This document shows, piece after piece, positions 4,426 through 20,178 of a DNA stretch of 32,104 bases. How positions within the stretch are numbered: the stretch's first letter is position 1; every line of letters begins with the position of its first letter. The DNA is taken from positions 1 to 32,104 of the forward strand of contig JAFXGR010000153.1 of assembly GCA_017520155.1 (NCBI GenBank), in the 5' to 3' direction. The position numbers and the translations under genes are program-made. The stretch is from Lachnospiraceae bacterium (lineage in GTDB: Bacteria > Bacillota > Clostridia > Lachnospirales > Lachnospiraceae). A model generated the notes under the pieces. That model saw nothing but the letters and a program-made list of their open reading frames with translations. It searched no databases and had not been told where the DNA came from.

Positions 4426-4451
4426 TGGTTTATCTACTCCTCTCATTTTCC

Positions 4452-6650
4452 TCAATCTATTTCTGTCTTTCTTTTTAAAAAAATATTCTCTTCCTGATTT
4501 GCCCTCAGTCTGATTTTTTTACAATCTCCCTCAGAGTTTTTCACCACCAGCTCTCTGTCATAAGTTGACAGCAGTATTACCTTATATTCCTTTTGACCAT
4601 CATACTCCAAGGAAACATTAAGATTTCCATAGGCCTTAAAGCCTTTAAAGGATATGCTTTTTTCCCTCCAATGCCTAGGAATAGCCGGTAAAACAGTAAT
4701 TTCATCCTGTTCTGTTTTTAACAGCATTTCCTGCAGTGCATCTGCTGCCCACATATTAGATTCCAAAGTAAAGGGTCTGTAATGGAAGATTGAATATCCT
4801 CTTTTCTTATAATCACCATTTAAATGAAATCCATTAGGGGAGCAAAAACTTTCCCAAAAAATTCTCAATTGTTCATATGCACCCTCACCATTTCCTGCTA
4901 CGGAATATAAATGGGACATCCAGCAAAAGGAAAATCCTACCCACATGCCGCTTCCCCATTTTTCATAATCTAAAATGGTAGCATCTATTACCTCTTTTGC
5001 GAATTGATAATTATATAGCTTAAGAGGCCATATGGCCATTGCATTTGACAGATGTCTATGTGATTCTCTTAAACTTTCTGCAGGAGAAATCATCAATACC
5101 TTTTCTTCATTTACTGCCAAGGAAGGTAGTTTTTTTATATGCCTTTCCCATTCTTCCTGCCTTCCATCCTGTAAAATATAGGAATACTCTTTCAAGGTTG
5201 TAAACAGGTAGAAAAGAAGTGCCAAATCATAATTACTATTGGGTTCTACAAAGGATTCTATCTCATCATCATGAATTTCGGGAGAACTGGAGATGGGTAA
5301 ATAATATTTTCCTTCTCTTTCCTCCAAAAGTCCTAAAATACAATCAGCAGTCTCCTCAAAATATATTTTCGCCCTATCCTTTAAAAAACTTCTGTCACCA
5401 CTATATCTGTAATATTGATCAAAACATTGACATAGCCAAATCTGATGAGTGGGGACTAAAGAATACATAGGCCATCCTCCCAAAGGCTTGCCGTCAATAG
5501 TCATAACACCTGGAAGACAAATCCCTTTCGTCTTATAAAAAGTTTTTGCAAACTTTTTAGCTTGGGGACGAAGATTCCATAAATAATCTAAAAATGCTTC
5601 CCCTTCTTCCCAATGATTTGCCTTTAAATAATGAGTATAACTAATTTGTGTATTTAAATCATTATGATAGTCTCCTTTCCAAGGAGGCAGTTCATGATTA
5701 TCTGCCGTCCATACCCCCTGTAGGGGCATGGGATATTCTCCCTTTCTGGAACAGGATCCTAACAAATAATTTGTTATATACCAATTATGTTCAAAGAGCG
5801 CATCCGGTAAAGATAAGGATGATTTTTTCCAAAATTTGTCCCACCAATCCTGATGTTCCTTTCTCATCCTTTCATAAGAACAATTAAGCTCCTTTTTAAT
5901 TTCCAGTTTTGCCTCTTCCAAGGGGTCTTCACCATCTTTTGATGTGAAAATTTTATAACAAATTGTGGTTTCTTTATCTTCTCTTTTTTTCCCCATAAGG
6001 ATTCCAAAATAAAAATCACTTTCTATTGGCTGTAAAAACCATTGAAAAGATATTTCTCCTTCTTCCTTTCCCTCCTGCAGGGGGGGATAATATAAATCTT
6101 TTGCAGTTCCTTTCGTAAAATCTCTTGTAATCTTTTCCACTTTACTAGTTTTACCGCGATCACAAGAAAATCCGGGAGACAATAAGCATATTTCATACTC
6201 CTTCTCTTTTCCCCGAATACGAATAAAACCGCTTTTCGTTGTTGCATGGCAAAAAGCTTCCAGAGAAATGCCTGAACCCTCCACCTCAAATTCACTGCAG
6301 GCTGTTTTCATTTCCAGCCGTGAAGTGATGTTTTTTCCCTTGGGAAAGGAAAAAATAATTTTACCTACAGGCAGCTTTGTAGGAAGGGGACTATTGTATG
6401 GAGCATCAAATAACTCTCTTATTTCCTCTGTCTTTCCTTCCCTTGCCAGCTGGATTAATGTTCCATAGGTAAACTCTTCGCATTCAATATTTTGAGGTGT
6501 ACTATGGTCCCAAATATCAACTCTGTCCAAACTGAACCTGAACTCTTTTGGGGTTCCCCAGATTAACGTTCCTATTCTTCCGTTTCCTAAAGGGATTCCT
6601 TCATCCCAGGATTCAATGGACTTGTTAAAAAAAAGTTGATGCTCTTTCAT
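4452..6650 (-). CDS. GH95-type glycoside hydrolase (alpha-L-fucosidase-like), divergent active site
   Basis: The 732-residue protein has the GH95 layout: an N-terminal beta-sandwich beginning DEGIPLGNGRIGTLIWG, an (alpha/alpha)6 barrel, and a C-terminal EITVLPAIPRHW region. The family removes alpha-1,2-linked L-fucose or L-galactose by inversion. The general-acid glutamate appears kept (Glu458 in SSSPE). By eye, the Asn-x-Asn pair of the bifidobacterial enzyme aligns with Asp331/Asn333 in GDYHNDLNTQ, and the base-activating Asp with Glu630 in FTLESNMW. Specificity may therefore differ from classic fucosidases. No signal peptide, so it acts inside the cell on imported sugars. It starts after AGGGAG, 9 bp past the 59-aa membrane gene, and its stop lies 26 bp before the phosphorylase start. 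Confidence 0.8.
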   Translation of the reverse strand: MKEHQLFFNKSIESWDEGIPLGNGRIGTLIWGTPKEFRFSLDRVDIWDHSTPQNIECEEFTYGTLIQLAREGKTEEIRELFDAPYNSPLPTKLPVGKIIFSFPKGKNITSRLEMKTACSEFEVEGSGISLEAFCHATTKSGFIRIRGKEKEYEICLLSPGFSCDRGKTSKVEKITRDFTKGTAKDLYYPPLQEGKEEGEISFQWFLQPIESDFYFGILMGKKREDKETTICYKIFTSKDGEDPLEEAKLEIKKELNCSYERMRKEHQDWWDKFWKKSSLSLPDALFEHNWYITNYLLGSCSRKGEYPMPLQGVWTADNHELPPWKGDYHNDLNTQISYTHYLKANHWEEGEAFLDYLWNLRPQAKKFAKTFYKTKGICLPGVMTIDGKPLGGWPMYSLVPTHQIWLCQCFDQYYRYSGDRSFLKDRAKIYFEETADCILGLLEEREGKYYLPISSSPEIHDDEIESFVEPNSNYDLALLFYLFTTLKEYSYILQDGRQEEWERHIKKLPSLAVNEEKVLMISPAESLRESHRHLSNAMAIWPLKLYNYQFAKEVIDATILDYEKWGSGMWVGFSFCWMSHLYSVAGNGEGAYEQLRIFWESFCSPNGFHLNGDYKKRGYSIFHYRPFTLESNMWAADALQEMLLKTEQDEITVLPAIPRHWREKSISFKGFKAYGNLNVSLEYDGQKEYKVILLSTYDRELVVKNSEGDCKKIRLRANQEENIFLKRKTEID

Positions 6651-6659
6651 TTCGGCTCC

Positions 6660-6839
6660 CTATTTATACTTACTATTATAGTAAGCCAATAATCCTAACA
6701 GACCTGCTAAACCAACTAACTGTGTTACAAGTCCTGTCAAACCAATATTACGATGCCCCAAAATAACCAGCGCCACACAAACACAAAATATAATTGCCAG
6801 GATAATTCCTGTTACTATTTTTTTATTTTGCTCTGTCAT
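6660..6839 (-). CDS. small two-helix membrane protein of the sugar ABC operon
   Basis: The protein has 59 residues beginning MTEQNKKIVTG. It has two hydrophobic helices (about residues 8-28 and 33-54) joined by a short GHRNIG turn, and a basic C-terminus. The ATG at 6839 is preceded by AAGGTGA overlapping the permease stop codon, so translation is probably coupled. A GTG three codons earlier is possible but badly spaced. Its place directly after the two permeases suggests a small accessory subunit or stabiliser of the transporter. I know of short unnamed membrane proteins in similar Lachnospiraceae operons, but cannot assign a function. Confidence 0.75.
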   Translation of the reverse strand: MTEQNKKIVTGIILAIIFCVCVALVILGHRNIGLTGLVTQLVGLAGLLGLLAYYNSKYK

Positions 6840-6849
6840 CTTCTTCACC

Positions 6850-7734
6850 TTATCCTTTCAGACCGCCTACTGTCATTCCTTCTGTCAGCTGTTTTTGAAC
6901 TAACATATACAGGATTAATGTAGGAAGCATTACAATTACCAAACCTGCATACATCTGGCCGTATTGAACTGCAGACTTTTGTGCTGCCATAAGGTTCATC
7001 AGACCTACCGGTAAGGTTTTTAACTCCGGTTTTGTAAGTAAGGTCATCGAAATAATATATTCATTCCAGAAGGAAAGGAAATTAAATAAAATTACTGTAA
7101 TAATACTGGGTTTTGCCATAGGAATAATAATCTGAACCATTGTTCTGAAATATCCTGCTCCATCCACATAAGCAGCTTCTTCATAATCTTTTGCCACTGT
7201 TTTAAAGTACCCTGCCAACAAATAAATGGTAAAGGGAAGTGCTGTTGCCGCATATACAAGGGCAAGAATTACAATATTATTTAAGAAAAATGGCTCTCCT
7301 ATGGTTTTTCTTAAAAATGTATCCGCTTCACTGAGCATTAAGAAAATAGGAACTACAATGTAGTTTACATTAATGAATAATCCCGCCATAATTAAGGTAT
7401 TCAAAAATCCGTTTCCAAAGAATTTGAATCGGGATAATACATAAGAAGCCGGAAGTGCAACTACAATCAGAATCAATAAACCTAAGGCTGTTACAATGGC
7501 AGAATTAATCATATAAGATCCCATATCTGCCGTAGTCCATGCATCTACAAAGTTCTGCAGATACACCCCCGCCGGAAGAGCCCAGGGATTACGATAGAAT
7601 TCCACATTTTCTTTGATAGATGCCATAAATACCCAGCCCACCGGCACAATGATCGTTATGGTTAATAAAATAAGAGGTATGTATATCATAACCTTGCTAA
7701 GAAGCGAGGTTTCACCAATCTTTTTCTTGTTCAT
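6850..7734 (-). CDS. carbohydrate ABC transporter permease, MalG/type 2 (CUT1)
   Basis: The 294-residue protein has about six membrane helices. The inner-membrane component motif EEAAYVDGAGYFRTMVQIIIPMAKP, which docks the ATPase, is at about 190-215, and the C-terminus EGMTVGGLKG is typical of MalG-type subunits. It pairs with the upstream permease to form the channel. GAAGGAGAG precedes the ATG, and it starts 15 bp after the upstream permease. No ATPase gene is in the operon; CUT1 systems in Firmicutes often share a genome-wide MsmK-type ATPase, and that is inferred here. Confidence 0.93.
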   Translation of the reverse strand: MNKKKIGETSLLSKVMIYIPLILLTITIIVPVGWVFMASIKENVEFYRNPWALPAGVYLQNFVDAWTTADMGSYMINSAIVTALGLLILIVVALPASYVLSRFKFFGNGFLNTLIMAGLFINVNYIVVPIFLMLSEADTFLRKTIGEPFFLNNIVILALVYAATALPFTIYLLAGYFKTVAKDYEEAAYVDGAGYFRTMVQIIIPMAKPSIITVILFNFLSFWNEYIISMTLLTKPELKTLPVGLMNLMAAQKSAVQYGQMYAGLVIVMLPTLILYMLVQKQLTEGMTVGGLKG

Positions 7735-7749
7735 CTTTTTCTCTCCTTC

Positions 7750-8640
7750 TTATAATTCAATAGGATCTCGTTTTGTCACCTTATTCAAAATAGCAGAAAG
7801 GGCAAAGGAGAAGGTAAATACCACTGAACCAATTGCCATTCCGTATCCATAGGATGAATTGGTATATGCTTCCTGATACATATAGCTTAAGAATACATGA
7901 GATGCACTATCCGGCCCTCCGTTAGTCATGGCTTTTACAAAAAGGAAACTCATATTAATTGTACTGATTACAAAGAAGGTTAAGGTTGTTCTGATGTTGG
8001 TCCAGATTAAGGGCAAGGTAATGGAAAAGAATTGAGTAATCTTTCCTGCACCCTCTAAATCTGCTGATTCATATAAGCTTTCTGACACACTGGACATACT
8101 TGCCATATACATAACCATGTAATAACCTACTGCCTGCCAAATCATTGCAATTACAATACTGTAAATAACAATTTTCTGGCTTCCTAACCATAAAATGGGA
8201 TCTTTATGTCCTCTGAAAACTCCCAGAATAGAATTTAAAAGACCTTGGTTCGGATCATAAATTGCAGAGAAAATAGCACTAATAATTACCACGGATAAAA
8301 TATTGGGAATATAAAAAACAATACGGAAGAAATTCTGTCCTTTAATCTTTTCTCTTGTTAAAATTGCCGCAAATATTAACGCTAATGACATTGTTACAAT
8401 TGTTACAATTACAATCAGGAGAATCTGATTTTGAAAGGAACGCAGAAACTTTTCACTTTGAAGTAATGTTTGGAAATTTTTAAGTCCAACAAAAGTTTTA
8501 TCAGCCGTATATCCTCCCCATTTATAAAGAGACATACGGAATACATCAATGGTAGGAATTACCATAAAAATAACAAATAATGCAATGGCCGGAGCTACAC
8601 AACAAAATATGAATAGCCCTCTTCCTTTTGTTTGTCGCAT
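7750..8640 (-). CDS. carbohydrate ABC transporter permease, MalF/type 1 (CUT1)
   Basis: The 296-residue protein has six predicted membrane helices beginning FIFCCVAPAIALFVIFMVIP. The ATPase-docking loop ESLYESADLEGAGKITQFF lies at about 190-210 and the typical NGGPDSASHVF is near 240. AGGAGAG precedes ATG 8640. It follows the binding-protein gene after an intervening terminator, so it is likely made in lower amounts than that protein. Confidence 0.93.
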   Translation of the reverse strand: MRQTKGRGLFIFCCVAPAIALFVIFMVIPTIDVFRMSLYKWGGYTADKTFVGLKNFQTLLQSEKFLRSFQNQILLIVIVTIVTMSLALIFAAILTREKIKGQNFFRIVFYIPNILSVVIISAIFSAIYDPNQGLLNSILGVFRGHKDPILWLGSQKIVIYSIVIAMIWQAVGYYMVMYMASMSSVSESLYESADLEGAGKITQFFSITLPLIWTNIRTTLTFFVISTINMSFLFVKAMTNGGPDSASHVFLSYMYQEAYTNSSYGYGMAIGSVVFTFSFALSAILNKVTKRDPIEL

Positions 8641-8668
8641 AATTTCTCTCCTATCTTCTATAATTTAC

Positions 8669-8687
8669 GATAACTTTTACCGTTATC
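8669..8687. promoter_or_regulatory. small inverted repeat upstream of the permeases (possible operator)
   Basis: GATAAC and GTTATC flank 7 bases. The minus-strand sequence ATGATAACGGTAAAAG matches a CcpA cre consensus except at one conserved position. It sits between the attenuator and the first permease. This is only a candidate. Confidence 0.25.
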
Positions 8688-8714
8688 ATTTAGAGATACT
8701 TACTGATAGTCTTG

Positions 8715-8750
8715 AAAAAAGCTGGTGCTCATTTGAACACCAGCTTTTTT
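8715..8750 (-). terminator. intrinsic terminator/attenuator after the binding-protein gene
   Basis: A hairpin with arms GCTGGTG/CACCAGC is followed on the minus strand by six T. Partial readthrough would make the binding protein in excess over the permeases and enzymes, a common design in ABC operons. Confidence 0.8.
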
Positions 8751-8772
8751 ATCTTTTCTGTTACCAACAATA

Positions 8773-10155
8773 TTACTGCTGTTTCAGGTTAGCTCTGAAT
8801 GTATCGTTATCTTTAATAATCTGAGCTTTCCAATCATCAATTGTTTTATCTTTTGTTACTAAAGAGTTGATTGGATCACAGAATGTACCACGGATTGTTG
8901 TACCTTCGATAGATTCTGTTGCTGCGAAAGCGTCTAATACTGCTACTGCACCTGTATCATAAATGCTGTAGTAAATCTTAGCATCACCTTCTAAAGTATC
9001 TGCTAAACCATTGATAGGCTGAATAGCACCTTTTTCAGCAAAGATTGCTGCTGCTGCATCAGAGTAAAGGAATGCGATGAACTGTTTTCCGGCATCTACA
9101 TTTACTGCTCCACCGGGCATCCAAACCTGTTCAAACCAAGCATAAGAAGCTCTTTCTCCGCCATCTTCAACTGCAGGAAGTGCTGTGAATCCCCATTCAA
9201 ATCCATCAGCTCTGGGAGCTTCAGCCATTTCACCGATTACCCAGTTTCCGTTAGGCATGAATAATGCTTTATTGTCTAATACTAACTGCTGATTCTTCTG
9301 GAAGTTATCATCGTTAGCATTTGCAGGTGTTGTAGGTTCTGTGTATGTAGCAAGTTTGTCTAAAATTGCAAAGATGGTTTCTGCTTCAGGAGTTTCCCAA
9401 ACACCTTCACCATACTGAAGAACATTTGCAAAGTTATCTCCGAATGCTTCATGCATTAAAGCATAAAGGAAAGCATCAAAGTATCCTGCTGTAGGATAAG
9501 TAAACAAAGAGATTCCTTCTGCTTTTGCAGTATCTCCTAATGCCCACATTTCATCCCAAGTTGTAGGAACTTCCCATCCTTTTTCTGCAAATAATCCTGC
9601 ATTGTAGAATAATCCACAAGGACTGTAGAACATAGGCATAAGATAGATTTTTCCATCGCCGTAAGGCTGTGTAATTGTGTTATTTGTAAATCCACCTAAC
9701 ATTTTATCAGATACTTTAGCAGTTTCTCCGGGAACTGTTAAATCCATAACATCGCTAAGATCTACTAAGTTATTGTCTTTAATGAAAGTTTCTGTCATAC
9801 CGGACTCAGCACCAACTGCACGCATAATAACGTCAGGATAATTTCCAGCTTTCATATCGGGAGAGATAACATCTTCCAAATTCTTATCAACAGTAAGCTC
9901 TACTGTGATACCTGTTGCTGCTTCAAATTCTGCCGCTACATTTTTCCAAATGTCAGCGCCGTATGCAGTTTCAACTGCTGCAACCTTAACAACCTGACCT
10001 TCTCCTGTTTCTTCTGCTGCCGCTTCTTCTGCGGGAGCTGCTTCTTCTGTTGCCGGAGCTGCTTCTTCAGCAGGTGCTGTAGTTGCACCACAACCAGCTA
10101 ATAAAGAAGATACCATTGCTACACTTAAAAGTGTACTTACAAGTTTCTTTTTCAT
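8773..10155 (-). CDS. extracellular sugar-binding lipoprotein of the ABC importer
   Basis: The 460-residue protein has a lipoprotein signal ending LLAGC, with Cys22 as the lipidated residue. An acidic Ala/Glu/Pro tether runs from about 25 to 50, followed by a family 1 solute-binding fold (VVKVAAVETAYGADIWKNVAAEFEAATGITVELT...). Its tail MPGGAVNVDAGKQFIAFLYSDAAAAIFAEKGAIQP is typical of oligosaccharide-binding proteins. It would capture the substrate outside the membrane and deliver it to the permeases. The substrate is inferred from the downstream GH95 and GH112 genes to be a galactosyl-HexNAc oligosaccharide, possibly fucosylated. AAGGAGG precedes the ATG. This is the first gene of the operon. 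Confidence 0.93.
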   Translation of the reverse strand: MKKKLVSTLLSVAMVSSLLAGCGATTAPAEEAAPATEEAAPAEEAAAEETGEGQVVKVAAVETAYGADIWKNVAAEFEAATGITVELTVDKNLEDVISPDMKAGNYPDVIMRAVGAESGMTETFIKDNNLVDLSDVMDLTVPGETAKVSDKMLGGFTNNTITQPYGDGKIYLMPMFYSPCGLFYNAGLFAEKGWEVPTTWDEMWALGDTAKAEGISLFTYPTAGYFDAFLYALMHEAFGDNFANVLQYGEGVWETPEAETIFAILDKLATYTEPTTPANANDDNFQKNQQLVLDNKALFMPNGNWVIGEMAEAPRADGFEWGFTALPAVEDGGERASYAWFEQVWMPGGAVNVDAGKQFIAFLYSDAAAAIFAEKGAIQPINGLADTLEGDAKIYYSIYDTGAVAVLDAFAATESIEGTTIRGTFCDPINSLVTKDKTIDDWKAQIIKDNDTFRANLKQQ

Positions 10156-11558: not shown

Positions 11559-12220
11559 ATGAAACAACCTAATACTTTAATAATTACGGAATCGACTGTA
11601 ATCGTTGGGTGGCCAGGCCTTTTCAATATGAGGAAAAATATCACCCTACTAATTGGGTAACGGATCGCAGCATCGATTTTTTAAGACGCAGAGATCCTGA
11701 CCGGCCATTTTTCCTTATGGCTTCTTACTTACGTCCACCTCCACCTTTTGATGCTCCTGCCTGGTATTTTGATTTGTATAATAGAAAAGAATTGTCTCCA
11801 CCAGCCATGGGTGACTGGGAGGATACTACTCTCTTGCAGGAAAGAAGTTGTTATTTCGATTCTCTTACCGGTCCTATTGCCCCCGAGTTAATCCGTCAGG
11901 CCCAAGTAGGATATTACGCCTGTATTACTCACTTGGATCATCAAATCGATCGTTTAATTATGGCACTAACAGAACATGAGCTTCAAAATGATACCGTTAT
12001 TTTGTTTACTTCTGATCATGGAGAAGAATTATGCGATCATCATTACTTCAGAAAATCCATGCCCTACGAAGGAAGTACCAGAATCCCCATGATCCTTTCT
12101 GGAAATCCTGCTTTACTTGGTCTGAAACCAAACTCAGTATGCCATGATATAGTAGAGCTGCGGGATGTTATGCCTACCTGTTTTTTCTTCTACTTCAAGC
12201 TCAATACACATAAAAATTAA
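11559..12220 (+). pseudogene. sulfatase pseudogene with internal deletion and truncated 3' end
   Basis: ATG 11559 follows AAAGGGAATAGCTC and encodes MKQPNTLII, the usual opening of a family S1 sulfatase. The reading frame is then lost. From about 11585 another frame continues as YGIDCNRWVARPFQ and then a recognisable middle and C-terminal section, including DRPFFLMASYLRPPPP, YYACITHLDHQIDRL and FTSDHGEELCDHH. An out-of-frame deletion has thus removed the section that should hold the Cys/Ser-x-Pro-x-Arg formylglycine site. The end is also lost: after RDVMPT, normally followed by about 100 more residues, there is only a short tail and a stop. The product cannot be an active sulfatase. Confidence 0.85.
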
Positions 12221-12260: not shown

Positions 12261-13370
12261 CTATTCTCTGACCTTTCCTACAGATTCTCCATCATGAATA
12301 TAGGGTTCCAGAACACAGGAATAGTCCCTTTTCCCAAAATCCTTATTTTCCATCATTTTTAAAAGTCGCTTACTGACTTCTATTCCCATAATTCTTCCTT
12401 GATGTACCGTACAGGTAATTCCGCTTTGTGCCCAGTCTTCCTTGGAATAGTCAAAGCAAACCAAGGAATAATCTTGGGGAACTTTTTTCCCCATATTCTG
12501 CAATACTCTTCGTACCATTTTTAGGAGCATATAATTACAGCACACAATAGCTGTACATTGTGGCTGACTTTTAATAAATTTAAAAATTTCCTTTTCAAAA
12601 GCTTTTTTATAAGCAGAAGAGGAAACGCACCATTTCACATAGTCGTCATCAAAAATACATCCATACTTTTGCAACGCCTTTACATAGCCACAAAATTTTT
12701 CCGCACTTTGATAATTATCCGTCACAAAAACCCCCATAATCTTTTTATGCCCCTGCCTTGCCAACCTTAGCACCAATTCGTCCGCACCGGAAATATCATT
12801 ATTCGTAACCTTTGAACACGTTAATTCCTTGTAATAATTATTATAAAAAATGATGGGGATATTTTTAGCCAGTATATTATGATAACAATCTAAGTTAGGA
12901 TTTACAATACTTGCCATAACCCCATCAATAATAAAACCGTCAAAATTATTATGCATCACTTCATCCAAACATGCCCGTTCATTGGAAAAACGATTATTGG
13001 TAAAATACACTCTCAAATCTGTGGTTTCCTCATGTAATACACTTCTGATTCCATTTAGCAATTCCTTATTGGCATCAGGATCCTGCCCCTGCAAGATAAC
13101 ACCTATTTTTCTTGACATACCGGGACGCATTTCCTTATCCCATACAGCTACTTCCTTTTTAAAGAAAGTTCCGCTTCCCTGTACTCTATAAATCAACCCT
13201 TCCTTTTCCAAAATATTCATTACCGAACGAACTGTATCTCTGCTAACCTTCAACCTTCTGGTCAAAGCATTTTCCGAAGGCATCTTATTACTTACAGAAA
13301 AACGATTTTCTTCAATATAATCTCTAAGCCAATGATAAACCAAGGTCTGCTTTCCAATTTTTTTCTGCAT
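12261..13370 (-). CDS. GntR/LacI hybrid (AraR-type) transcriptional regulator
   Basis: The 369-residue protein joins a GntR winged helix-turn-helix (residues 1-72: KMPSENALTRRLKVSRDTVRSVMNILEKEGLIYRVQGSGTFF) to a LacI/GalR-type periplasmic-binding sensor (about 88-365: KIGVILQGQDPDANKELLNGI, NFDGFIIDGVMAS, PIIFYNNYY, QGHKKIMGVFVTDNYQSAEKFCGY). This is the AraR layout, in which a small sugar releases the repressor from DNA. AAGGAGG precedes the ATG. It lies 54 bp downstream of the sulfatase gene beyond a terminator, and most likely controls the tctCBA-sulfatase operon in response to the imported compound or its product. Confidence 0.88.
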   Translation of the reverse strand: MQKKIGKQTLVYHWLRDYIEENRFSVSNKMPSENALTRRLKVSRDTVRSVMNILEKEGLIYRVQGSGTFFKKEVAVWDKEMRPGMSRKIGVILQGQDPDANKELLNGIRSVLHEETTDLRVYFTNNRFSNERACLDEVMHNNFDGFIIDGVMASIVNPNLDCYHNILAKNIPIIFYNNYYKELTCSKVTNNDISGADELVLRLARQGHKKIMGVFVTDNYQSAEKFCGYVKALQKYGCIFDDDYVKWCVSSSAYKKAFEKEIFKFIKSQPQCTAIVCCNYMLLKMVRRVLQNMGKKVPQDYSLVCFDYSKEDWAQSGITCTVHQGRIMGIEVSKRLLKMMENKDFGKRDYSCVLEPYIHDGESVGKVRE

Positions 13371-13383
13371 AATCCTCCTTTTT

Positions 13384-13416
13384 TAAAAAGACAGCTCAGC
13401 TTAATAAGCTGAACTG
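13384..13416 (-). terminator. intrinsic terminator after the sulfatase gene
   Basis: An 11-bp stem with one mismatch (13392-13402/13406-13416) and a 3-nt loop is followed by TCTTTTT on the minus strand. It limits readthrough into the regulator gene. Confidence 0.75.
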
Positions 13417-13424
13417 CTACCTTT

Positions 13425-14777
13425 TTAATCTACAATTCTAGGAACTATATGTTCTGCTTCTTCAATCCAGGAAAGAAGTCTTTTTCGTAAATCTTCCTTT
13501 ATCTGTGCATAAGCAGGGTCTCCGACAATATTCGTTAATTCATGAGGATCCTTTGTCAAATCATACATGAAATCATCTGCATAAAAATCAGATGACGCTG
13601 CTACTCCTCCATGAAGTCCAGGGGCATATACGGAATAAGCATATTCCGGTGTACGAATACATCGTCCTACACGACTTTCCGAAATTTGTGCAAAGGCTTC
13701 ATTTTTACGGTTTGGCAACCTTCCTTCTACAACATCCACCAAATTTTCTCCAATCATGTTATCCCCTACATTTACCCCTGCCAGAGCACAGATTGTTTTG
13801 GGAAGACTGGCTGTACTCACAATATCTTCAAAAGCTGTACCACCCTTAAAAGGACCTCCTGAAATCACAAAAGGAACCTTAAGACATGCATCATGCATGG
13901 AACGCTTGTAGTCATCATAACCATTCAGATGTTCATCTCTGTTTCTGGTAAGAAAATGAGAGCCATGATCCGAAACAAAAATAATCACTGTATTGTCATA
14001 AAGACCTTTTTCCTTCAATTTGGCCACCAATTTCCCAAGATTCTTATCTAAAGAGGCACACTGCCCCAAATAATCCGGATATTCTTCCTTATAATTTCCT
14101 CCTAAGGTTTCCAGATCTACCGGAGCTTCATACTCTTTATATTTCTCCTTAGATCCTATAGGCCCTTCATAACAATTTCTGTCATTTTGATGATGGGGTT
14201 CAATATGAGAAATAGTCATAAAAAACGGCTTTTCTTCCTTTCTTTGGTCAAAAAATTCCAATGCCATATCCGTCAGACAGTCACAACGATATCCCTTAAA
14301 GTCAATTCTGTTATTATTTTCATCAAAAACATAACCATCGTAACCATGACTGGTAAACTCCAATACATCAGAAGCTCTCCAAAATCCTGTATATCCTCCT
14401 CTCAGCTCCTTAGGAATAGCTGTAATCGTATGATCAATAGTTGGTTTTTGTTCTAATTCTCCATCACTTGCCAAATGCCATTTCCCGATATACGCAGTCT
14501 CATAACCTGCTTCTTCCATATAACTTCCCAGCGTCTTCACCTCTGATGGTAGCATAATGTTATTTCTAAAACACCCTGTTTCCGTAGGCCATTTTCCTGT
14601 TTGAAACAAAGCCCGACAGGGGCCGCATACCGGCTGTGGTGAAAATGCATTTTCAAACTTAATTCCTTCCTTAGCCAACTGATCAAGATTTGGTGTAATC
14701 TCTAACTTCTGTCCATAGCATCCACAGGTATCTGCCCTTTGCTGATCAGAAAAATACATCACAATATTTGGTTTCAT
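13425..14777 (-). CDS. Cys-type S1 family sulfatase, predicted cytoplasmic
   Basis: The 450-residue protein has the sulfatase fold. Metal-binding residues lie in YFSDQQRADT (Asp11, Gln12) and IIFVSDHGSHF. The formylglycine site is Cys51 in VCGPCRALFQTGKWP, matching Cys-x-Pro-x-Arg, so in an anaerobe the radical-SAM maturase is needed. It hydrolyses a sulfate ester; the substrate is unknown. The N-terminus begins MKPNIVMYFSDQQ with no signal peptide, so it should act in the cytoplasm. Its ATG overlaps the tctA stop by one base (TAATG) and its ribosome site lies inside tctA, so it is translationally coupled to the transporter. The simplest reading is import of a small sulfated compound followed by desulfation inside the cell. 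Confidence 0.92.
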   Translation of the reverse strand: MKPNIVMYFSDQQRADTCGCYGQKLEITPNLDQLAKEGIKFENAFSPQPVCGPCRALFQTGKWPTETGCFRNNIMLPSEVKTLGSYMEEAGYETAYIGKWHLASDGELEQKPTIDHTITAIPKELRGGYTGFWRASDVLEFTSHGYDGYVFDENNNRIDFKGYRCDCLTDMALEFFDQRKEEKPFFMTISHIEPHHQNDRNCYEGPIGSKEKYKEYEAPVDLETLGGNYKEEYPDYLGQCASLDKNLGKLVAKLKEKGLYDNTVIIFVSDHGSHFLTRNRDEHLNGYDDYKRSMHDACLKVPFVISGGPFKGGTAFEDIVSTASLPKTICALAGVNVGDNMIGENLVDVVEGRLPNRKNEAFAQISESRVGRCIRTPEYAYSVYAPGLHGGVAASSDFYADDFMYDLTKDPHELTNIVGDPAYAQIKEDLRKRLLSWIEEAEHIVPRIVD

Positions 14778-16273
14778 TATTTTACCACTCCCTTCTTAGC
14801 TTCTTTCATTTTATTCACAATAATCATAGATATGGCTGCAATGATCAGCACTAAAAATACAATACAGTACCAGCTACCTACAAAAATAGAAAAGTTTCCA
14901 TCAGTAAGCAGCAGGGCACGACGGAAGTTTGTTTCTGTCATATTCCCTAAAACTAATCCCAACAAAATAGGAACCGTAGGCATATCCAGCTTTTTCATTA
15001 TCCATGCAATGGCAGCAAAAACCAGAATAACCACAACATCAAAATAAGATTTATTTACCGAAAATGCTCCGGCAAAACAAAACATAACAATAATCGGTGT
15101 TAAAATTTCCTGGGGAACAGAAACTATCTTAGCAAACATATCTGTTAAATATCTTCCTTGTAAAAACATAAATATGTTAACAAAAATTAACCCGATCATA
15201 ATGGCATACATAATATCGCCCTGTGTGGTAAATAGTGATAAGCCGGGATTTAATCCATTAATCATTAAGGCAGATAGCATAATGGCTACACATCCGTCTC
15301 CCGGAATCCCCAGAGTCAATAAAGGAATCAGAGTAGCACCCGTTACAGCATTATTAGCAGCTTCTGCTGCAGCAATTCCTTCCACAGAACCATGTCCGAA
15401 TTCCTCCTTATGTTTTGACATTGCCTTAGCCCTGTCATAACTGAACCAGGAAGCCATGGATGCTCCTGTTCCCGGAATAATACCAATAATTACTCCAATA
15501 ATTGAAGAGACCACTGCCGGAAGAATCATACGCTTTCCTTCTTCCTTTGTAATTTTATCTTCCGTTTTTATCTTACTGGTATCCAGCTTTAATGGTCCTA
15601 CTTTTCCTTCTGCCTTACCCAGAATTTCTACCAGTGCAAATAAACCGATTAGACAAATAGCTAAGTCTAAGCCCATGTACAGTCTGGCATTCCCAAAAGT
15701 AAAGCGGTCGTAACCGGTCAAGGGATCTGCCCCCACACAGGAAATCAATAACCCAAGGGCTGCTGAAATAATCCCCTTGATTAAGCTTTTTCCTGAAATA
15801 CCGGCAATAATGGTTAAACCAAACAGGCACACCAAAAAGTATTCTGCAGTTCCCAGCTGTGCTGCTATCTTTGCTACCTGAGGTGCTAAAAACAGCAAGG
15901 AAAGTGCAGAGAAAATTCCTCCAAAGGTAGAAGCATACAAGGCAATTCTAAGGGCTGTTTTTGTACGTCCCTTTTTCGATAAGGGATGCCCGTCCAACAT
16001 GGTGGTTGCCGCATGAGGTGTTCCCGGCGTATTAATTAAAATAGCCGATACACTTCCTCCATACCCACCGGCACAATAAATCCCCAATAAAAACATCATC
16101 CCCGGAATGGCTGTCATTTTATAGGTAAAGGGTAAAAATAAAATAATACATAAGATAACACTTAGCCCCGGAATAGCTGCAAAAATAGAGCCAATAAACA
16201 CCCCCAGGTTCATCCAGAGAAAGTTTTCAAATGTAAATAATTGCTGCAGTGCAGGTCCGATATATTCCAGCAT
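14777..16273 (-). CDS. tctA: TctA-family large membrane subunit of a tripartite tricarboxylate-type transporter
   Basis: The 498-residue protein has about 11-12 membrane helices. It carries the duplicated TctA signatures: IFAAIPGLSVILCIILFLPFTYKM and GGYGGSVSAILINTPGTPHAA in the first half, IGIIPGTGASMASWFSYDRAK and LLTLGIPGDGCVAIMLSALM in the second. With TctB and TctC it forms a secondary transporter driven by an ion gradient. Known members take up citrate and other carboxylates and some aromatic acids. AAGGAGG precedes the ATG. Its last base pairs overlap the sulfatase start, which ties transport to desulfation. Confidence 0.93.
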   Translation of the reverse strand: MLEYIGPALQQLFTFENFLWMNLGVFIGSIFAAIPGLSVILCIILFLPFTYKMTAIPGMMFLLGIYCAGGYGGSVSAILINTPGTPHAATTMLDGHPLSKKGRTKTALRIALYASTFGGIFSALSLLFLAPQVAKIAAQLGTAEYFLVCLFGLTIIAGISGKSLIKGIISAALGLLISCVGADPLTGYDRFTFGNARLYMGLDLAICLIGLFALVEILGKAEGKVGPLKLDTSKIKTEDKITKEEGKRMILPAVVSSIIGVIIGIIPGTGASMASWFSYDRAKAMSKHKEEFGHGSVEGIAAAEAANNAVTGATLIPLLTLGIPGDGCVAIMLSALMINGLNPGLSLFTTQGDIMYAIMIGLIFVNIFMFLQGRYLTDMFAKIVSVPQEILTPIIVMFCFAGAFSVNKSYFDVVVILVFAAIAWIMKKLDMPTVPILLGLVLGNMTETNFRRALLLTDGNFSIFVGSWYCIVFLVLIIAAISMIIVNKMKEAKKGVVK

Positions 16274-16290
16274 TATTCTTCCTCCTTAAA

Positions 16291-16806
16291 TTAAAAGCTT
16301 ACGTTTAATATAAAACGAAATGCCGCCCAAATTCCTACGGCAAAGGTAATAGTAATCATATAGTAACTTTTTTTCTTACAGCGGAAGAAAAGCAAAAAAC
16401 TGACAGCGCAAAACAGTGCACCTAAAACAAATAACCCTGTAAGTCTACAGATTAACCAAAAGACAACTAAAATCCCAAAAATAATCAGTGCCTTTACTTC
16501 TACCAAAGTATTAATAGTTTTTGTATCTACTTCTTCCTTACGAGCTATTTTCAGTATGTCCTTCACTGCAACAAGTATAGAACCACCAATCATAATGTAA
16601 CAAAGATAGGTGGGAAATGCTGCACCGCTGACTACCTCATCCTTTCCTACTGTTACCTGACCGGGTACAAGTAGTAATAATACAATTCCCATCACAAAAA
16701 ATACAGCTGCAGCAGCTAAATCTGTGGGAATTGTAATTTCTTTTTTCTCCAGCTTAGCACCCATGCTGTCAAGCTTTTCTTCCATATTCCTTATAAAATC
16801 TCTCAT
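16291..16806 (-). CDS. tctB: TctB-family small membrane subunit
   Basis: The 171-residue protein has four predicted membrane helices (from about 30, 66, 107 and 148), preceded by a charged cytoplasmic N-terminus of about 28 residues. Size, topology and its position between tctC and tctA identify it as TctB, a poorly conserved subunit. GGAG precedes the ATG. It follows tctC across a terminator hairpin. Confidence 0.85.
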   Translation of the reverse strand: MRDFIRNMEEKLDSMGAKLEKKEITIPTDLAAAAVFFVMGIVLLLLVPGQVTVGKDEVVSGAAFPTYLCYIMIGGSILVAVKDILKIARKEEVDTKTINTLVEVKALIIFGILVVFWLICRLTGLFVLGALFCAVSFLLFFRCKKKSYYMITITFAVGIWAAFRFILNVSF

Positions 16807-16863
16807 CGTTTACTCCATCTCTTTTCATCCTATTGTTTTTCCTGTTCACCTTTTTCTTCAAGG

Positions 16864-16898
16864 AAAAAAGCAGTGCAAGAGTTACTCTCCTGCACTGC
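16864..16898 (-). terminator. intrinsic terminator/attenuator between tctC and tctB
   Basis: A perfect stem GCAGTGCA/TGCACTGC (16870-16877/16891-16898) is followed on the minus strand by TTTTTT. Partial readthrough would give an excess of the binding protein TctC over the membrane subunits, as in the ABC operon. Confidence 0.85.
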
Positions 16899-16916
16899 CC
16901 GCAAATTCAATACTAA

Positions 16917-17876
16917 TTAGTTAGCCACGAGATCGTAGTACTCGTTAACAATATTTTTAACATTGTCGATGTGTTCTAACACTTGTTCCTCTGTCATCGT
17001 ATCTACTTCAAGAAGCATCGTATCACTTAACCATGTTGCAACCTCTTCATCTGCTAAAATCTGTCCATATAAGGATTTTAATGCTGCTACCTTATTTTCA
17101 TCCGCTCCGCTGCGTGCCATAATAAAGCAACGATTACGGAAGTACGGATATCCATGCTTACCAACACCTTCTACCCCTGCAAAAGGACCATCTGCAATAT
17201 CTTCCCCATCAAAAGCACAAACCATAGTAACACCGCCCTGCTGGAAGGTTTCTAAGATTTGAGACTGATGAGAAACTGCAAAGTTGGTTTCTCCTCTTGC
17301 TACTGCCTGAGCTGCCTCTGCTGCGGAAGAATAGGCAACTAATTTTAACTGGTCTCCGTATCCCATTGCTCCGAATAAAGCTGCCGCAAGGAAAGCCTCA
17401 GATCCGGTTGCTCCATTTGTAGCTACGGAAATCTCATTTCCCTCTTCCATGTAAGCTTTCAAACTATCAATACTGTCAATTCCTAATTTTGCATCTGCAC
17501 TCATTACAAAAATAGAAGAGTAAAGATTCTCTACGTAACTAAAGTCTTCATAAGTAAACTGTAATTTTGCAGGATCCAAAATAGAGGTGATAGAGAATAA
17601 ACCTTCTCCTGCAAATACTAACTCAGGATCACTCACTTTTGTAGAAGCTACCCAGGTATTAACTGTTGCTGCATCACCCTTAATTGCATCTGCAACTAAA
17701 ATGATATCTTTTGAATACTCTGTGGAAAGAGATGCTGCTTTCTGGCTAACCACAGCCGCTACACCTGATGGTGCCCAAGGACACGTTACTGTCCAGGTTT
17801 CTGTTTTGTCACCACATCCTACCAGACAGGTACAAACCATTACAACACTTAGAACTAATGAAATAATCTTTTTCAT
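16917..17876 (-). CDS. tctC: TctC-family substrate-binding lipoprotein
   Basis: The 319-residue protein has a lipoprotein signal ending CLVGC (Cys21). It shows the tripartite tricarboxylate transporter receptor fold: the N-terminal WTVTCPWAPSGVAAVVSQKAA strand-turn that replaces the usual PFPPGG, ISVATNGATGSEAFLAA at about 150, and LKLVAYSSAAEAAQAVARGETNFAVSH. In this Gram-positive it would be tethered to the outside of the membrane. Family members bind small, mostly anionic molecules. Given the linked sulfatase, a small sulfated anion is a reasonable guess but not proven. AAAGGAGAG precedes the ATG, and a sigma-A-like promoter lies upstream. It is the first gene of the operon. Confidence 0.9.
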   Translation of the reverse strand: MKKIISLVLSVVMVCTCLVGCGDKTETWTVTCPWAPSGVAAVVSQKAASLSTEYSKDIILVADAIKGDAATVNTWVASTKVSDPELVFAGEGLFSITSILDPAKLQFTYEDFSYVENLYSSIFVMSADAKLGIDSIDSLKAYMEEGNEISVATNGATGSEAFLAAALFGAMGYGDQLKLVAYSSAAEAAQAVARGETNFAVSHQSQILETFQQGGVTMVCAFDGEDIADGPFAGVEGVGKHGYPYFRNRCFIMARSGADENKVAALKSLYGQILADEEVATWLSDTMLLEVDTMTEEQVLEHIDNVKNIVNEYYDLVAN

Positions 17877-17915: not shown

Positions 17916-17945
17916 ATTATAGCCTTGTATATTTTTGTTTTTCAA
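17916..17945 (-). promoter_or_regulatory. sigma-A-type promoter of the tctCBA-sulfatase operon
   Basis: TTGAAA and TATAAT on the minus strand are separated by 18 bases, about 35-40 nt before the tctC start codon. No clear palindrome was found next to it. Confidence 0.6.
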
Positions 17946-18073
17946 TCATCTTTTTCTATTTTTATAATAAAGTTGTATGTTTTTTGTTTTTTTCTTTGTC
18001 ACTTGTATGTACATATGTGAATTTATTTATAATATTTTTGTGCATTATGATGTTTTTATATTTTTCACCCATC

Positions 18074-18142: not shown

Positions 18143-19252
18143 TTAACTGATTCCATACAGCTTCTGATAAATTACAGCCGCCTTCTCTAGACGCGGGATA
18201 GTATATTCAAAAAATTCATAATAGGCTTTACACAACATATGATGTTCTTTACGATATCTCTTACATCCTCCACGGCAAAGAGGATAATATTTACATGCTT
18301 TACATTTCTTAGGAATCTCCAAGGATTCTTCAATAAAACCAAGTATACTTCTTGCTTCATTAATTTCTTCAAAGGAATTGCTTACTATATTGCCAAGCTT
18401 ATACTCATCCAATACATAAAAATCACAGGGGTATACTTCCCCATCTGCCTCAATAATATGCTGCGGGGTACAAAAACCAGCCATTCCACAAAGACCCGGT
18501 GGCTGACGAAACAGCATTCGTATGTATTCTTCAAAAAGCTGAATATGTACCACCTTTCCCCTCTCCAAATCCTGATACCATAAATCAAACAGGGAGTTTA
18601 AAAACTTTCCATATCCTTGTGGTGTCAAGGAGTACTCATATTTTTCCTCCTCCTTTCCCAAAGGATTTAAACAGGGAATAAATTGCAGATATTCAAATCC
18701 CATCTCCTTATAAAAGGAATAAATATGGGATATTTTTTTCACTACCGCGGAAGTTACTACCGTAAGAATATTATAGTCTACTCCTTCTTCCTCCAGCATC
18801 TTAATTGCCTTTACTACTTGTTCGAAGGTTCCTTTCCCTGAAGCATCCTTTCGAAACATATCATGAGTAAACTCAATTCCATCTAAGGAAATACCTACCA
18901 GAAAATGATTCTCTTTTAAAAATGAGATCCAGTCCTTTGTAAGTTTTGTTCCGTTGGTTTGAATACCATTTGTAAATTTTACCTCTTTTGTTTCATACTT
19001 CTTTTGCAGTCGGACTACTTCCTTAAAAAAATCCAATCCTCGTAAGGTAGGCTCCCCTCCCTGAAAGACAATATTACAAGTCCCTTTGCAATACTGTGCC
19101 GCTTTTTTTATCACTTCTTCCAAAATCTCTTCCTTCATGAAACCATAAGATTCCGTCTCTCTATTTTTAGCTTCATCATAATAAAAACAATAGCTGCACC
19201 GCAAATTACACAAACTGGAAGAAGGTTTTATCAACAAACTAAGATCTGCCAT
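18143..19252 (-). CDS. anaerobic sulfatase-maturating enzyme (radical SAM/SPASM)
   Basis: The 369-residue protein begins MADLSLLIKPSS. The radical-SAM cluster is CNLRCSYC (Cys15, 19, 22) and the SAM-binding glycines are in FQGGEPTLRG. The C-terminal SPASM part keeps LCGMAGFCTP, DGEVYPCDFYVLDEYKLGN and CKACKYYPLCRGGCKRYR, the ligands of two auxiliary clusters and the catalytic Asp expected in anSME. It converts the active-site Cys of sulfatases to formylglycine without oxygen, so it should activate the Tct-linked sulfatase. ATG 19252 is preceded by GGAAG; an upstream GTG overlaps the preceding gene and is less likely. It is cotranscribed with the nucleotidyltransferase and kinase, not with the sulfatase. 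Confidence 0.93.
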   Translation of the reverse strand: MADLSLLIKPSSSLCNLRCSYCFYYDEAKNRETESYGFMKEEILEEVIKKAAQYCKGTCNIVFQGGEPTLRGLDFFKEVVRLQKKYETKEVKFTNGIQTNGTKLTKDWISFLKENHFLVGISLDGIEFTHDMFRKDASGKGTFEQVVKAIKMLEEEGVDYNILTVVTSAVVKKISHIYSFYKEMGFEYLQFIPCLNPLGKEEEKYEYSLTPQGYGKFLNSLFDLWYQDLERGKVVHIQLFEEYIRMLFRQPPGLCGMAGFCTPQHIIEADGEVYPCDFYVLDEYKLGNIVSNSFEEINEARSILGFIEESLEIPKKCKACKYYPLCRGGCKRYRKEHHMLCKAYYEFFEYTIPRLEKAAVIYQKLYGIS

Positions 19253-19257
19253 AGGCT

Positions 19258-20178
19258 TTACTTCCACAACTTTTGGGGATATAATCCACTATCCTTTAAT
19301 TCTTGAATAGCTTTTACCACCACAGGTTTATCTTCTTTATAGGTAACACCATGCCACTGATCCGGTGATTTCAATACTGTTACCGTTGCTTTTTCTTCTT
19401 CCAAAAGCTCACTGACAATGGCCGGTAAATAACACTCACATTTCAAAGGATTTGTTTTTAATCCCTCTTCTAAAAATGCAGGAAATCTTTCATTAATCTC
19501 CTCCAAAATACTCTTGGTAAATCCCCACATATTCATAGAAACAGGAGTTTTCTCATCAAGAAGAGTCCAGCTTTTTCCTTCATCTTCAGTATAGGCAATG
19601 CCTTCCTCTCTTTTTTCTATTCTGGTTCTTTCCGTTACGGAAATTAACTCCCCATTTTCCTTAACTTCACATACACCACGGGACACATAACCATTGTCTG
19701 TTACTGTTTTTCCTACTTCATAGCCCACCATTGCATAACGATATTTTTCATCATCCTGATAAGTAGTTAAAAAATCATAAATTAATTTAAACGCTTCTGT
19801 CCCATAATAATCATCTGCATTAATAACAGCAAAGGGGCCCTCTACCTCTGAAATGCAGCTTAATACTGCATGAGCAGTCCCCCAAGGTTTTACTCGTCCC
19901 TCCGGAACCTGATATCCTTGTGGAATATTATTCACATCCTGGAATACAAAGGCTACTTCCATTTTTGCTGCCACTGCATCTGTGATTACTTCTTTAAAAA
20001 GCTCTAAATTTTCTCTTTTAATAATAAATATCACTTTTTCAAAGCCTGCGCGATAAGCATCATAAACAGAAAAATCCATAATGATATGTCCCTGGGCATC
20101 TATTTTATCGATCTGTTTTAACCCTCCATATCTGCTTCCCATTCCTGCTGCCATTATTACTAAAACCGGTTTCTTCAT
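19258..20178 (-). CDS. sugar-phosphate nucleotidyltransferase (NTP transferase fold)
   Basis: The 306-residue protein begins MKKPVLVIMAAGMGSRYGG, with the nucleotide-binding G-x-G-x-R...K-Q motif at residues 9-22. INADDYYG near 127 is the metal-binding aspartate region, and GYVSRGVCEV and a sugar-phosphate-binding C-terminal half follow. It should make an NDP-sugar from an NTP and a sugar-1-phosphate. The sugar is not clear, and hexose-1-phosphate or HexNAc-1-phosphate are both possible. ATG 20178 follows GGAAGGGAA. A TTG nine codons upstream lies before this site. An 8-bp hairpin (20198-20205/20228-20235) sits just before the ribosome site. It stops 5 bp before the maturase start. Confidence 0.85.
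   Translation of the reverse strand: MKKPVLVIMAAGMGSRYGGLKQIDKIDAQGHIIMDFSVYDAYRAGFEKVIFIIKRENLELFKEVITDAVAAKMEVAFVFQDVNNIPQGYQVPEGRVKPWGTAHAVLSCISEVEGPFAVINADDYYGTEAFKLIYDFLTTYQDDEKYRYAMVGYEVGKTVTDNGYVSRGVCEVKENGELISVTERTRIEKREEGIAYTEDEGKSWTLLDEKTPVSMNMWGFTKSILEEINERFPAFLEEGLKTNPLKCECYLPAIVSELLEEEKATVTVLKSPDQWHGVTYKEDKPVVVKAIQELKDSGLYPQKLWK

Follow-up and report, generated by a model that had tools for sequence, protein, structure and literature searches.

The stretch of DNA analysed here, which we call the window, spans an entire contig of 32,104 bases from a Lachnospiraceae genome that is 81% complete. On its minus strand, between positions 13425 and 17876, the genes of a tripartite Tct transporter (tctC, tctB and tctA) are followed in the same direction by a Cys-type S1 sulfatase predicted to be cytoplasmic. 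From gene content, conservation, motifs and linkage, we propose that these genes and their close neighbours probably form an uptake-and-desulfation module. Its core, the import and cytoplasmic desulfation of some sulfate ester, is the part we hold most firmly and consider highly probable. We favour a sugar sulfate as that ester with less confidence, and GlcNAc-6-sulfate, the leading guess for the individual compound, is a doubtful one.

In the proposed route, TctC would bind a small sulfate ester on the outer side of the membrane, and TctA and TctB would move it into the cell, driven by an ion gradient as is usual for TctA/TctB in the Tct family. An anaerobic sulfatase-maturating radical SAM enzyme (anSME) encoded nearby would turn the sulfatase Cys into formylglycine, and the sulfatase would then strip the sulfate in the cytoplasm. 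Where a TauE/SafE or CHR-type exporter is linked, sulfate would exit by it. A GntR/LacI regulator would control the operon, perhaps through the operator-like element CATACAACTTT. The ligand would most likely be a sulfated mucin-type sugar, with GlcNAc-6-sulfate placed ahead of other 6-sulfated hexosamines and of 6-sulfated galactose. It would be imported as such here; in loci where the sulfatase belongs to a GH112 operon, the phosphorylase would release it inside the cell.

Conservation of the Tct-sulfatase pairing

We scanned species contigs of GTDB with an alignment of four sulfatases, which gave at least 490 relatives, and took the 80 best of these (70–91% sulfatase identity). Together with L040, L045 and the window these make 83 loci; L034 and L096 are one and the same contig, which was counted once. 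The nearest sulfatase, at 91% identity, is in a Lachnospiraceae metagenome-assembled genome. The preliminary description had set conservation of the gene pairing in relatives as a test beforehand, and the pairing is indeed conserved: tct genes are linked to the sulfatase in 55 of the 83 loci, and tctA lies within 200 bp of it in 52. The common gene order is tctC-tctB-tctA-sulfatase-GntR/LacI, with an anSME homologue within 4 kb of the sulfatase in 54/83 loci and a homologue of the regulator within 2 kb in 49/83. Because many contigs end close to the sulfatase, these linkage counts are lower bounds.

The two central genes are packed tightly throughout. Across the 48 loci measured, the tctA-sulfatase spacing ranges from -14 to +33 nt, falling between -14 and +13 in 42 and at 1–4 nt in 29. 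In the window, the tctA TAA and the sulfatase ATG have one base in common (TAATG). This overlap, reported in the preliminary description, exists but is local, being found only in the window and its nearest relative L054 (2/48). By record title, the hosts of tct loci include Lachnospiraceae, Oscillospiraceae, Faecalibacterium prausnitzii ATCC 27768, Anaerotruncus colihominis DSM 17241 and Anaerobiospirillum, the last of which likely acquired the operon by horizontal transfer. In two records titled Anaerobiospirillum (L094 and L117) the operon has no adjoining GntR/LacI gene.

We also searched from the transporter side, using TctA alone as the query against 150 genomes from the family to which Flintibacter muris belongs (assumed to be Oscillospiraceae). 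A TctA match occurred in 32/150 genomes, with best identities of either 77–78% or at most 48% and none between; members of the tctA clade show 74–82% identity, the remaining TctAs at most 48%. The high-identity group comprised four genomes, namely the centre of the search, known from the forward scan, and three outside the 80 loci. In all four, three of them new, a sulfatase (74–79%) lies directly 3' of the clade tctA, which makes 3/3 further genomes besides the centre. Among the 28 genomes having only other TctAs, 11 were searched for a relative of the window sulfatase at E<=1e-20, and none of the 11 had one. In two class-level samples of 391 genomes each, the TctA clade did not turn up a second time; genome G628 of these samples carries a sulfatase of 70% identity on a different contig from its single TctA match (36%). 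Relatives of TctC at 50% identity or more were present in two of 299 genomes of the window's own family, and two of the three copies stand within the operon. The third (L035:1156-2109, on contig C83 of the source genome) is 52% identical to the window TctC; no tctA or tctB stands beside it on the 19.9 kb seen, the contig starting 1.2 kb upstream.

Pairing with sulfatases extends beyond this clade. In L040 and L045 the order is sulfatase, tctC, a small frame in the tctB place, tctA, LacI and a sulfatase of the window's own clade (66%). L140:1012-7753 holds tctC, a small frame, tctA and a sulfatase of another kind, followed by two NagK-like kinases (NF046058, below cut-off), while L141 holds tctC, tctA and two sulfatases. 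The order in L113 is tctC-tctB-tctA-sulfatase, again with a sulfatase of a different kind. Since other Tct clades too pair with sulfatases, the combination of Tct transporter and sulfatase is a design that recurs.

Could the arrangement reflect chance, or inherited synteny without shared function? We consider this very improbable. Such an account is favoured by the relatedness of the 83 loci, which do not count as independent; against it, tct linkage switches 12 times along the sulfatase tree versus 23.5 times in shuffles, gene order and spacing recur, the reverse search gave 4/4, an operator-like site is present (see below), and the hosts range, by record titles, from Clostridia to Anaerobiospirillum.

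The sulfatase and the divergent binding protein

The activation motif CGPCR (C-x-P-x-R) is present in 83/83 sulfatases, and PF00884 matches the window protein over its cut-off, in keeping with its first assignment as a Cys-type S1 sulfatase. The maturating enzyme is present as well, an anSME over the curated cut-off. We found the N-terminal core motif in 79/83 sulfatases; the four without the pattern were excluded from the leader count. A Met stands 3–7 residues ahead of the motif in 76/79 (3 residues in 65), and the window enzyme has no leader, as had been claimed. Two of the 79 (L092 and L123) have an in-frame hydrophobic stretch upstream, with no Met preceding that stretch. An exported mucin sulfatase was considered and rejected, there being no leader.

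PF00884 occurs at three places in the source genome: the window sulfatase, a degraded copy nearby, and a 626-aa frame on contig C99. We searched this frame for the Cys/Ser activation motif and found it absent; by sequence, the frame appears to resemble a membrane relative of lipoteichoic acid (LTA) synthase. Because the other two places are degraded or lack the motif, the window sulfatase is the sole intact Cys-type sulfatase seen in this 81% complete genome. The best relatives of the degraded copy (28–30%) are the second sulfatases of L113, L040 and L045.

A profile of the sulfatases ranked a GlcNAc-6-sulfatase (5g2v, which we take to be BT4656) first among solved structures, at 6.7e-49, and an exo-L-galactose-6-sulfatase second, at 1.4e-43. 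A putative sulfatase (8.6e-43) and a mucin-desulfating sulfatase (9e-41), presumably a 6-O-sulfatase, come next. By this ranking, those of the closest solved relatives whose function is known are enzymes for 6-O-sulfated sugars. The tetrapeptide DYKR is invariant (83/83) and aligns, across a one-residue insertion, with D-K-R of the GlcNAc-6-sulfatase, which we assume from residue numbers to be its O4-binding Asp/Arg site. In S1_11 6S-GlcNAc sulfatases, according to the available text of PMC10154612, an Asp/Arg pair reads O4. The evidence goes past the preliminary description, which had left the ester open, and points to a sulfated sugar over an aryl sulfate.

The window TctC has no Pfam match at E<=0.001, PF03401 being the family looked for. 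A profile of 30 TctC relatives nonetheless matched Tct binding proteins in the PDB, namely MatC (1e-6), a terephthalate-binding protein (4e-5) and, weakly, AdpC (5oei, 0.0088), and the window protein is therefore a genuine but divergent TctC. An almost ubiquitous TctC signature, P-F-x-A-G-G-x-x-D, is given in a 2018 review, the available text of which describes this loop and a second one closing round the proximal carboxylate of the ligand, with most contacts made by backbone and two waters. In the TctC of the present clade the motif is P-W-x-x-[SD]-G-V-A-[AS] in 44/44 full-length relatives, four partial rows standing outside the count, so that neither the Asp nor the first Gly is retained. 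A pattern search that required the loop but not the Asp found TctC in 11/20 loci, four of them clade members; in the other seven, all of other clades, the aligned Asp is retained in 7/7, Trp occurs in 6/7 and Thr in 2/7. An ordinary citrate-type Tct operon was rejected on the sulfatase pairing and the TctC signature.

Locus anatomy, regulation and substrate clues

The four genes described at the outset, all in one direction, were recovered as open reading frames, with Pfam support for all but tctC (Table 1). The unit is wider than had been described, however: it exceeds 13425–17876 and includes the regulator at 12261–13370 and the anSME at 18143–19267. An AraC gene lies on the plus strand, past the regulator and near the degraded sulfatase.

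Table 1. Features of the Tct-sulfatase locus and its surroundings in the window
Feature	Position	Strand	Basis or remark
anSME	18143..19267	-	PRK13758 446.7 bits (cut-off 441); TIGR03942 400.1 (cut-off 349.45), NCBIfam
Operator-like element CATACAACTTT	17969..17979	-	5' of tctC, above promoter-like site
Promoter-like TTGAAA-18-TATAAT	17916..17945	-	11/12 consensus positions
tctC, divergent solute-binding protein, lipoprotein-like start	16917..17876	-	Open reading frame and profile of relatives
Terminator-like hairpin, tctC/tctB gap	16868..16900	-	14 pairs and T tail
tctB, small membrane subunit	16291..16806	-	PF07331 5.1e-9, 36.9 bits (cut-off 29.1)
tctA, large membrane subunit	14777..16273	-	PF01970 1e-148, 496 bits (cut-off 28.9)
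Cys-type S1 sulfatase, predicted cytoplasmic	13425..14777	-	PF00884 6e-45, 154.3 bits (cut-off 25)
Terminator-like hairpin 3' of sulfatase	13391..13417	-	12 pairs
Protein with GntR DNA-binding and LacI/GalR-type effector domains	12261..13370	-	PF00392 2.6e-14, PF13377 1.2e-12
Degraded second sulfatase	11609..12220	+	C-terminal part open only, without catalytic Cys motif
Context block: sugar ABC transporter, GH95-like enzyme, GH112	2257..10155	-	TIGR02336 975.8 bits, TIGR03850 632 bits (NCBIfam); Pfam domains
Sugar ABC substrate-binding protein	8773..10155	-	Context block
Sugar ABC permeases	6850..8640	-	Named from sequence and position only
GH95-like enzyme	4452..6650	-	Pfam GH95
GH112 galacto/lacto-N-biose phosphorylase	2257..4455	-	Pfam LNB phosphorylase domains

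Of the 38 regions upstream of tctC, which are related to one another, 30 contain the 8-mer ACAACTTT, versus at most 2 in five shuffles. The pattern NA[TGC]ACAACTTT has 31 matches in the 1,385,030 bases of the loci, 27 of them upstream of tctC; within the source genome as far as it is complete, two other exact matches were found, both in coding frames. The promoter-like site comes purely from a consensus scan, which returns 26 such sites in the window versus 24.5 expected. The GntR/LacI protein is a probable regulator of the operon, and the CATACAACTTT site is perhaps its target. Its LacI-type effector domain, joined to a GntR part, suggests a sugar effector. AraR of Bacillus subtilis likewise combines a GntR-type DNA-binding part with a LacI-type effector part, but it senses arabinose and its operator is unlike the one here. 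A terminator-like hairpin follows tctC in 29/43 loci versus 2.2/43 in shuffles. The tctC-tctB hairpin may act as an attenuator, yielding more binding protein than membrane subunits.

A homologue of TauE/SafE (representative PF01925) or of the CHR transporter (representative PF02417) lies within 7 kb in 23/55 tct loci and in 0/28 others (Fisher 1.4e-5, relatedness ignored). Such linked exporters fit the release of sulfate within the cell. They also bear on an alternative in which the operon serves sulfur scavenging, with several small sulfate esters (aryl, alkyl or choline sulfate) imported for their sulfur and the carbon part incidental. Aerobes are known to scavenge sulfur with cytoplasmic sulfatases that small-molecule importers supply, and arylsulfatase and choline-sulfatase models do match the window enzyme, far under their cut-offs (PRK13759, 159.5 of 481 bits; TIGR03417, 131.9 of 433.45). 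The exporters in 23/55 tct loci, however, suggest that sulfate is disposed of, the regulator bears a LacI-type effector domain, and linkage to GH112 and hexosamine-type kinases recurs. We consider scavenging improbable.

GH112 genes lie within 9 kb of the sulfatase in 15/83 loci: ten without tct, which have sugar ABC transporters, and five with tct, the window included. On a quick sulfatase tree this linkage requires at least nine changes, and is therefore recurrent. An APH-family kinase stands between GH112 and the sulfatase in L107 and L118 and is probably an N-acetylhexosamine kinase; in L129 the GH112 context holds a GH20C enzyme. L123 carries at 4633–6138 a second, unlike sulfatase (CGPAR) between a sugar permease and the GH112 phosphorylase. 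Among the GH20 frames of the source genome is one of 1237 aa on contig C157 (L150:3-3713), which combines GH20 and F5/8 domains with repeats and ends in a hydrophobic C-terminus; it may be a hexosaminidase or lacto-N-biosidase of the cell surface. One scheme would cover both contexts: the sulfatase would act on a free 6-sulfated hexosamine, which is either imported by the Tct system or freed by GH112 from a sulfated disaccharide.

A variant of this scheme, not exclusive of it, has the Tct system import the sulfated disaccharide itself, such as 6-sulfo lacto-N-biose or 3'-sulfo galacto-N-biose. The neighbouring GH112 enzymes act on disaccharides, the GH20 and F5/8 enzyme of the same genome could release lacto-N-biose, and the available text of PMC13390454 reports a Tct binding protein whose ligands are alginate di- and trisaccharides. 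Yet GH112 lies within 7 kb in only 4/55 tct loci, and S1_11 enzymes act on terminal residues, according to the available text of PMC10154612. We rate a disaccharide ligand as rather unlikely, though less so than scavenging.

Several observations weigh against import and desulfation of a sulfated sugar as we propose it. No tct genes are linked to the sulfatase in 28/83 loci, which implies that the enzyme can be supplied by other routes, and in the class-level genome G406, which carries a 47% TctA, the best of 12 sulfatase matches are unpaired; one of its sulfatase matches (31%) does lie about 2 kb from a 40% TctA. As Trp is common and Thr variable in other TctCs, only the Asp and Gly changes are distinctive. 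Moreover, TctCs in other sulfatase-paired clades (L040, L045, L140 and L141) retain the signature Asp, so that its loss is neither required for nor proof of sulfate-ester binding. In the account of the 2018 review, as far as its available text goes, the carboxylate is held by waters and backbone and not by the Asp side chain. Within the S1_11 recognition triad, the Arg aligns and the Asp aligns across the insertion, and we did not locate the His that binds O3. The changes in GH112 linkage may include losses beside gains. We searched the C157 GH20 frame, in a genome 81% complete, for 6-sulfo-GlcNAc motifs and found none. Finally, the exporter linkage is not significant on independent pairs (median p 0.125), although every differing pair goes in the expected direction, and since significance is lost once relatedness is removed we count it only as supporting evidence.

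Some of these points would suit a different account, a shared regulon with separate substrates, in which the Tct system takes up a carboxylate (such as an aldonate or hexuronate) and the sugar of the sulfatase enters by another transporter. The ligands in the table of the 2018 review, in the part available, are carboxylic acids, sulfolactate included, and 14 of the 28 sulfatases without tct lie near GH112 or sugar ABC genes. On the other side, the TctA clade comes with the sulfatase in 4/4 genomes versus 0/11 for other TctAs, several other Tct clades are paired with sulfatases, and the TctC signature loop is altered. We regard the shared regulon as unlikely, at about the level of scavenging. 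Import of a small sulfated compound with desulfation inside the cell, as first proposed, is supported by conservation and anatomy and is the reading we prefer.

Significance and known systems

The conserved gene set in many gut bacteria looks like an unrecognised route for sulfated sugars, for example from mucus. Mucin sulfation protects the colon, and Faecalibacterium is a butyrate former. We tentatively picture a cross-feeding route, possible although we would not call it the likelier case, in which gut Clostridia would import GlcNAc-6-sulfate, or a close 6-sulfated sugar, freed from mucin by other microbes. In this picture the Tct system would have been rebuilt for sulfate esters, the Tct-sulfatase pairing would have arisen more than once, and desulfation would take place in the cytoplasm with the sulfate exported. 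If it is true, exported sulfate would feed sulfate reducers and link mucin use to their sulfate supply. It would also explain the use of sulfated sugars by Gram-positive commensals (Faecalibacterium, Anaerotruncus) without exporting a sulfatase, and would provide a sink for sulfated monosaccharides freed by sulfoglycosidases. The ligand range of the understudied Tct family would be widened, and the system would be, to our knowledge, the first of the Tct type to take a sulfate ester as its ligand. Pairs of tctA and sulfatase genes offer a ready genomic marker for further such systems. The mucin desulfation routes reviewed in the available text of PMC10154612 are exported sulfatases of Bacteroides and Pedobacter.

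The open-licence literature we searched holds no report of a Tct system with a sulfatase or for sulfate esters, which does not prove absence; in the available text of papers naming both Tct and sulfatase or sulfate esters, the terms stand in separate contexts. This agrees with the preliminary description, which knew of no Tct system for sulfate esters. The step is nevertheless smaller than it held, because a sulfonate (SlcHFG) and alginate oligosaccharides are among the ligands of Tct systems already described.

SlcHFG is a Tct system for 3-sulfolactate in Roseovarius and Chromohalobacter, and putatively in Taurinivorans muris (table of the 2018 review and a further source, each in its available part). 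In that table, as far as it is available, sulfolactate is the only sulfur oxo-acid among Tct ligands. Like the module proposed here, SlcHFG places a tripartite Tct beside sulfur-removing enzymes and handles a ligand with a sulfur oxo-acid group. Its ligand, however, is a sulfonate with a carboxylate, from which a sulfo-lyase frees the sulfur, whereas here a sulfatase for esters accompanies an altered TctC loop.

The tripartite tricarboxylate transporter (TTT) of Vibrio sp. C42 imports alginate oligosaccharides (PMC13390454). It resembles the proposed module in having a charged-sugar ligand, a GntR regulator and cytoplasmic degradation. It differs in its uronate oligosaccharide ligand and in its binding protein, TTT-C, whose ligand site retains Phe, Thr, Asp and Pro; that paper describes these residues as conserved and as required for binding, and its available text mentions no sulfatase.

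The 6-sulfo-beta-GlcNAcases BbhII, Bt4394 and SGL release 6S-GlcNAc, according to the available text of the paper on them, in which the word 'transport' does not occur. They would yield the candidate ligand here, but act as a glycosidase step before uptake.

On the enzyme side, BT4656, if it is entry 5g2v, is the nearest solved relative of the window sulfatase by profile, with 6-O-sulfated GlcNAc chemistry. With BT1628 and BT3177, BT4656 is one of the S1_11 6S-GlcNAc sulfatases of Bacteroides (PMC10154612, available text). Those enzymes are periplasmic or otherwise exported according to the same text, whereas the window sulfatase is leaderless and stands behind a Tct importer.

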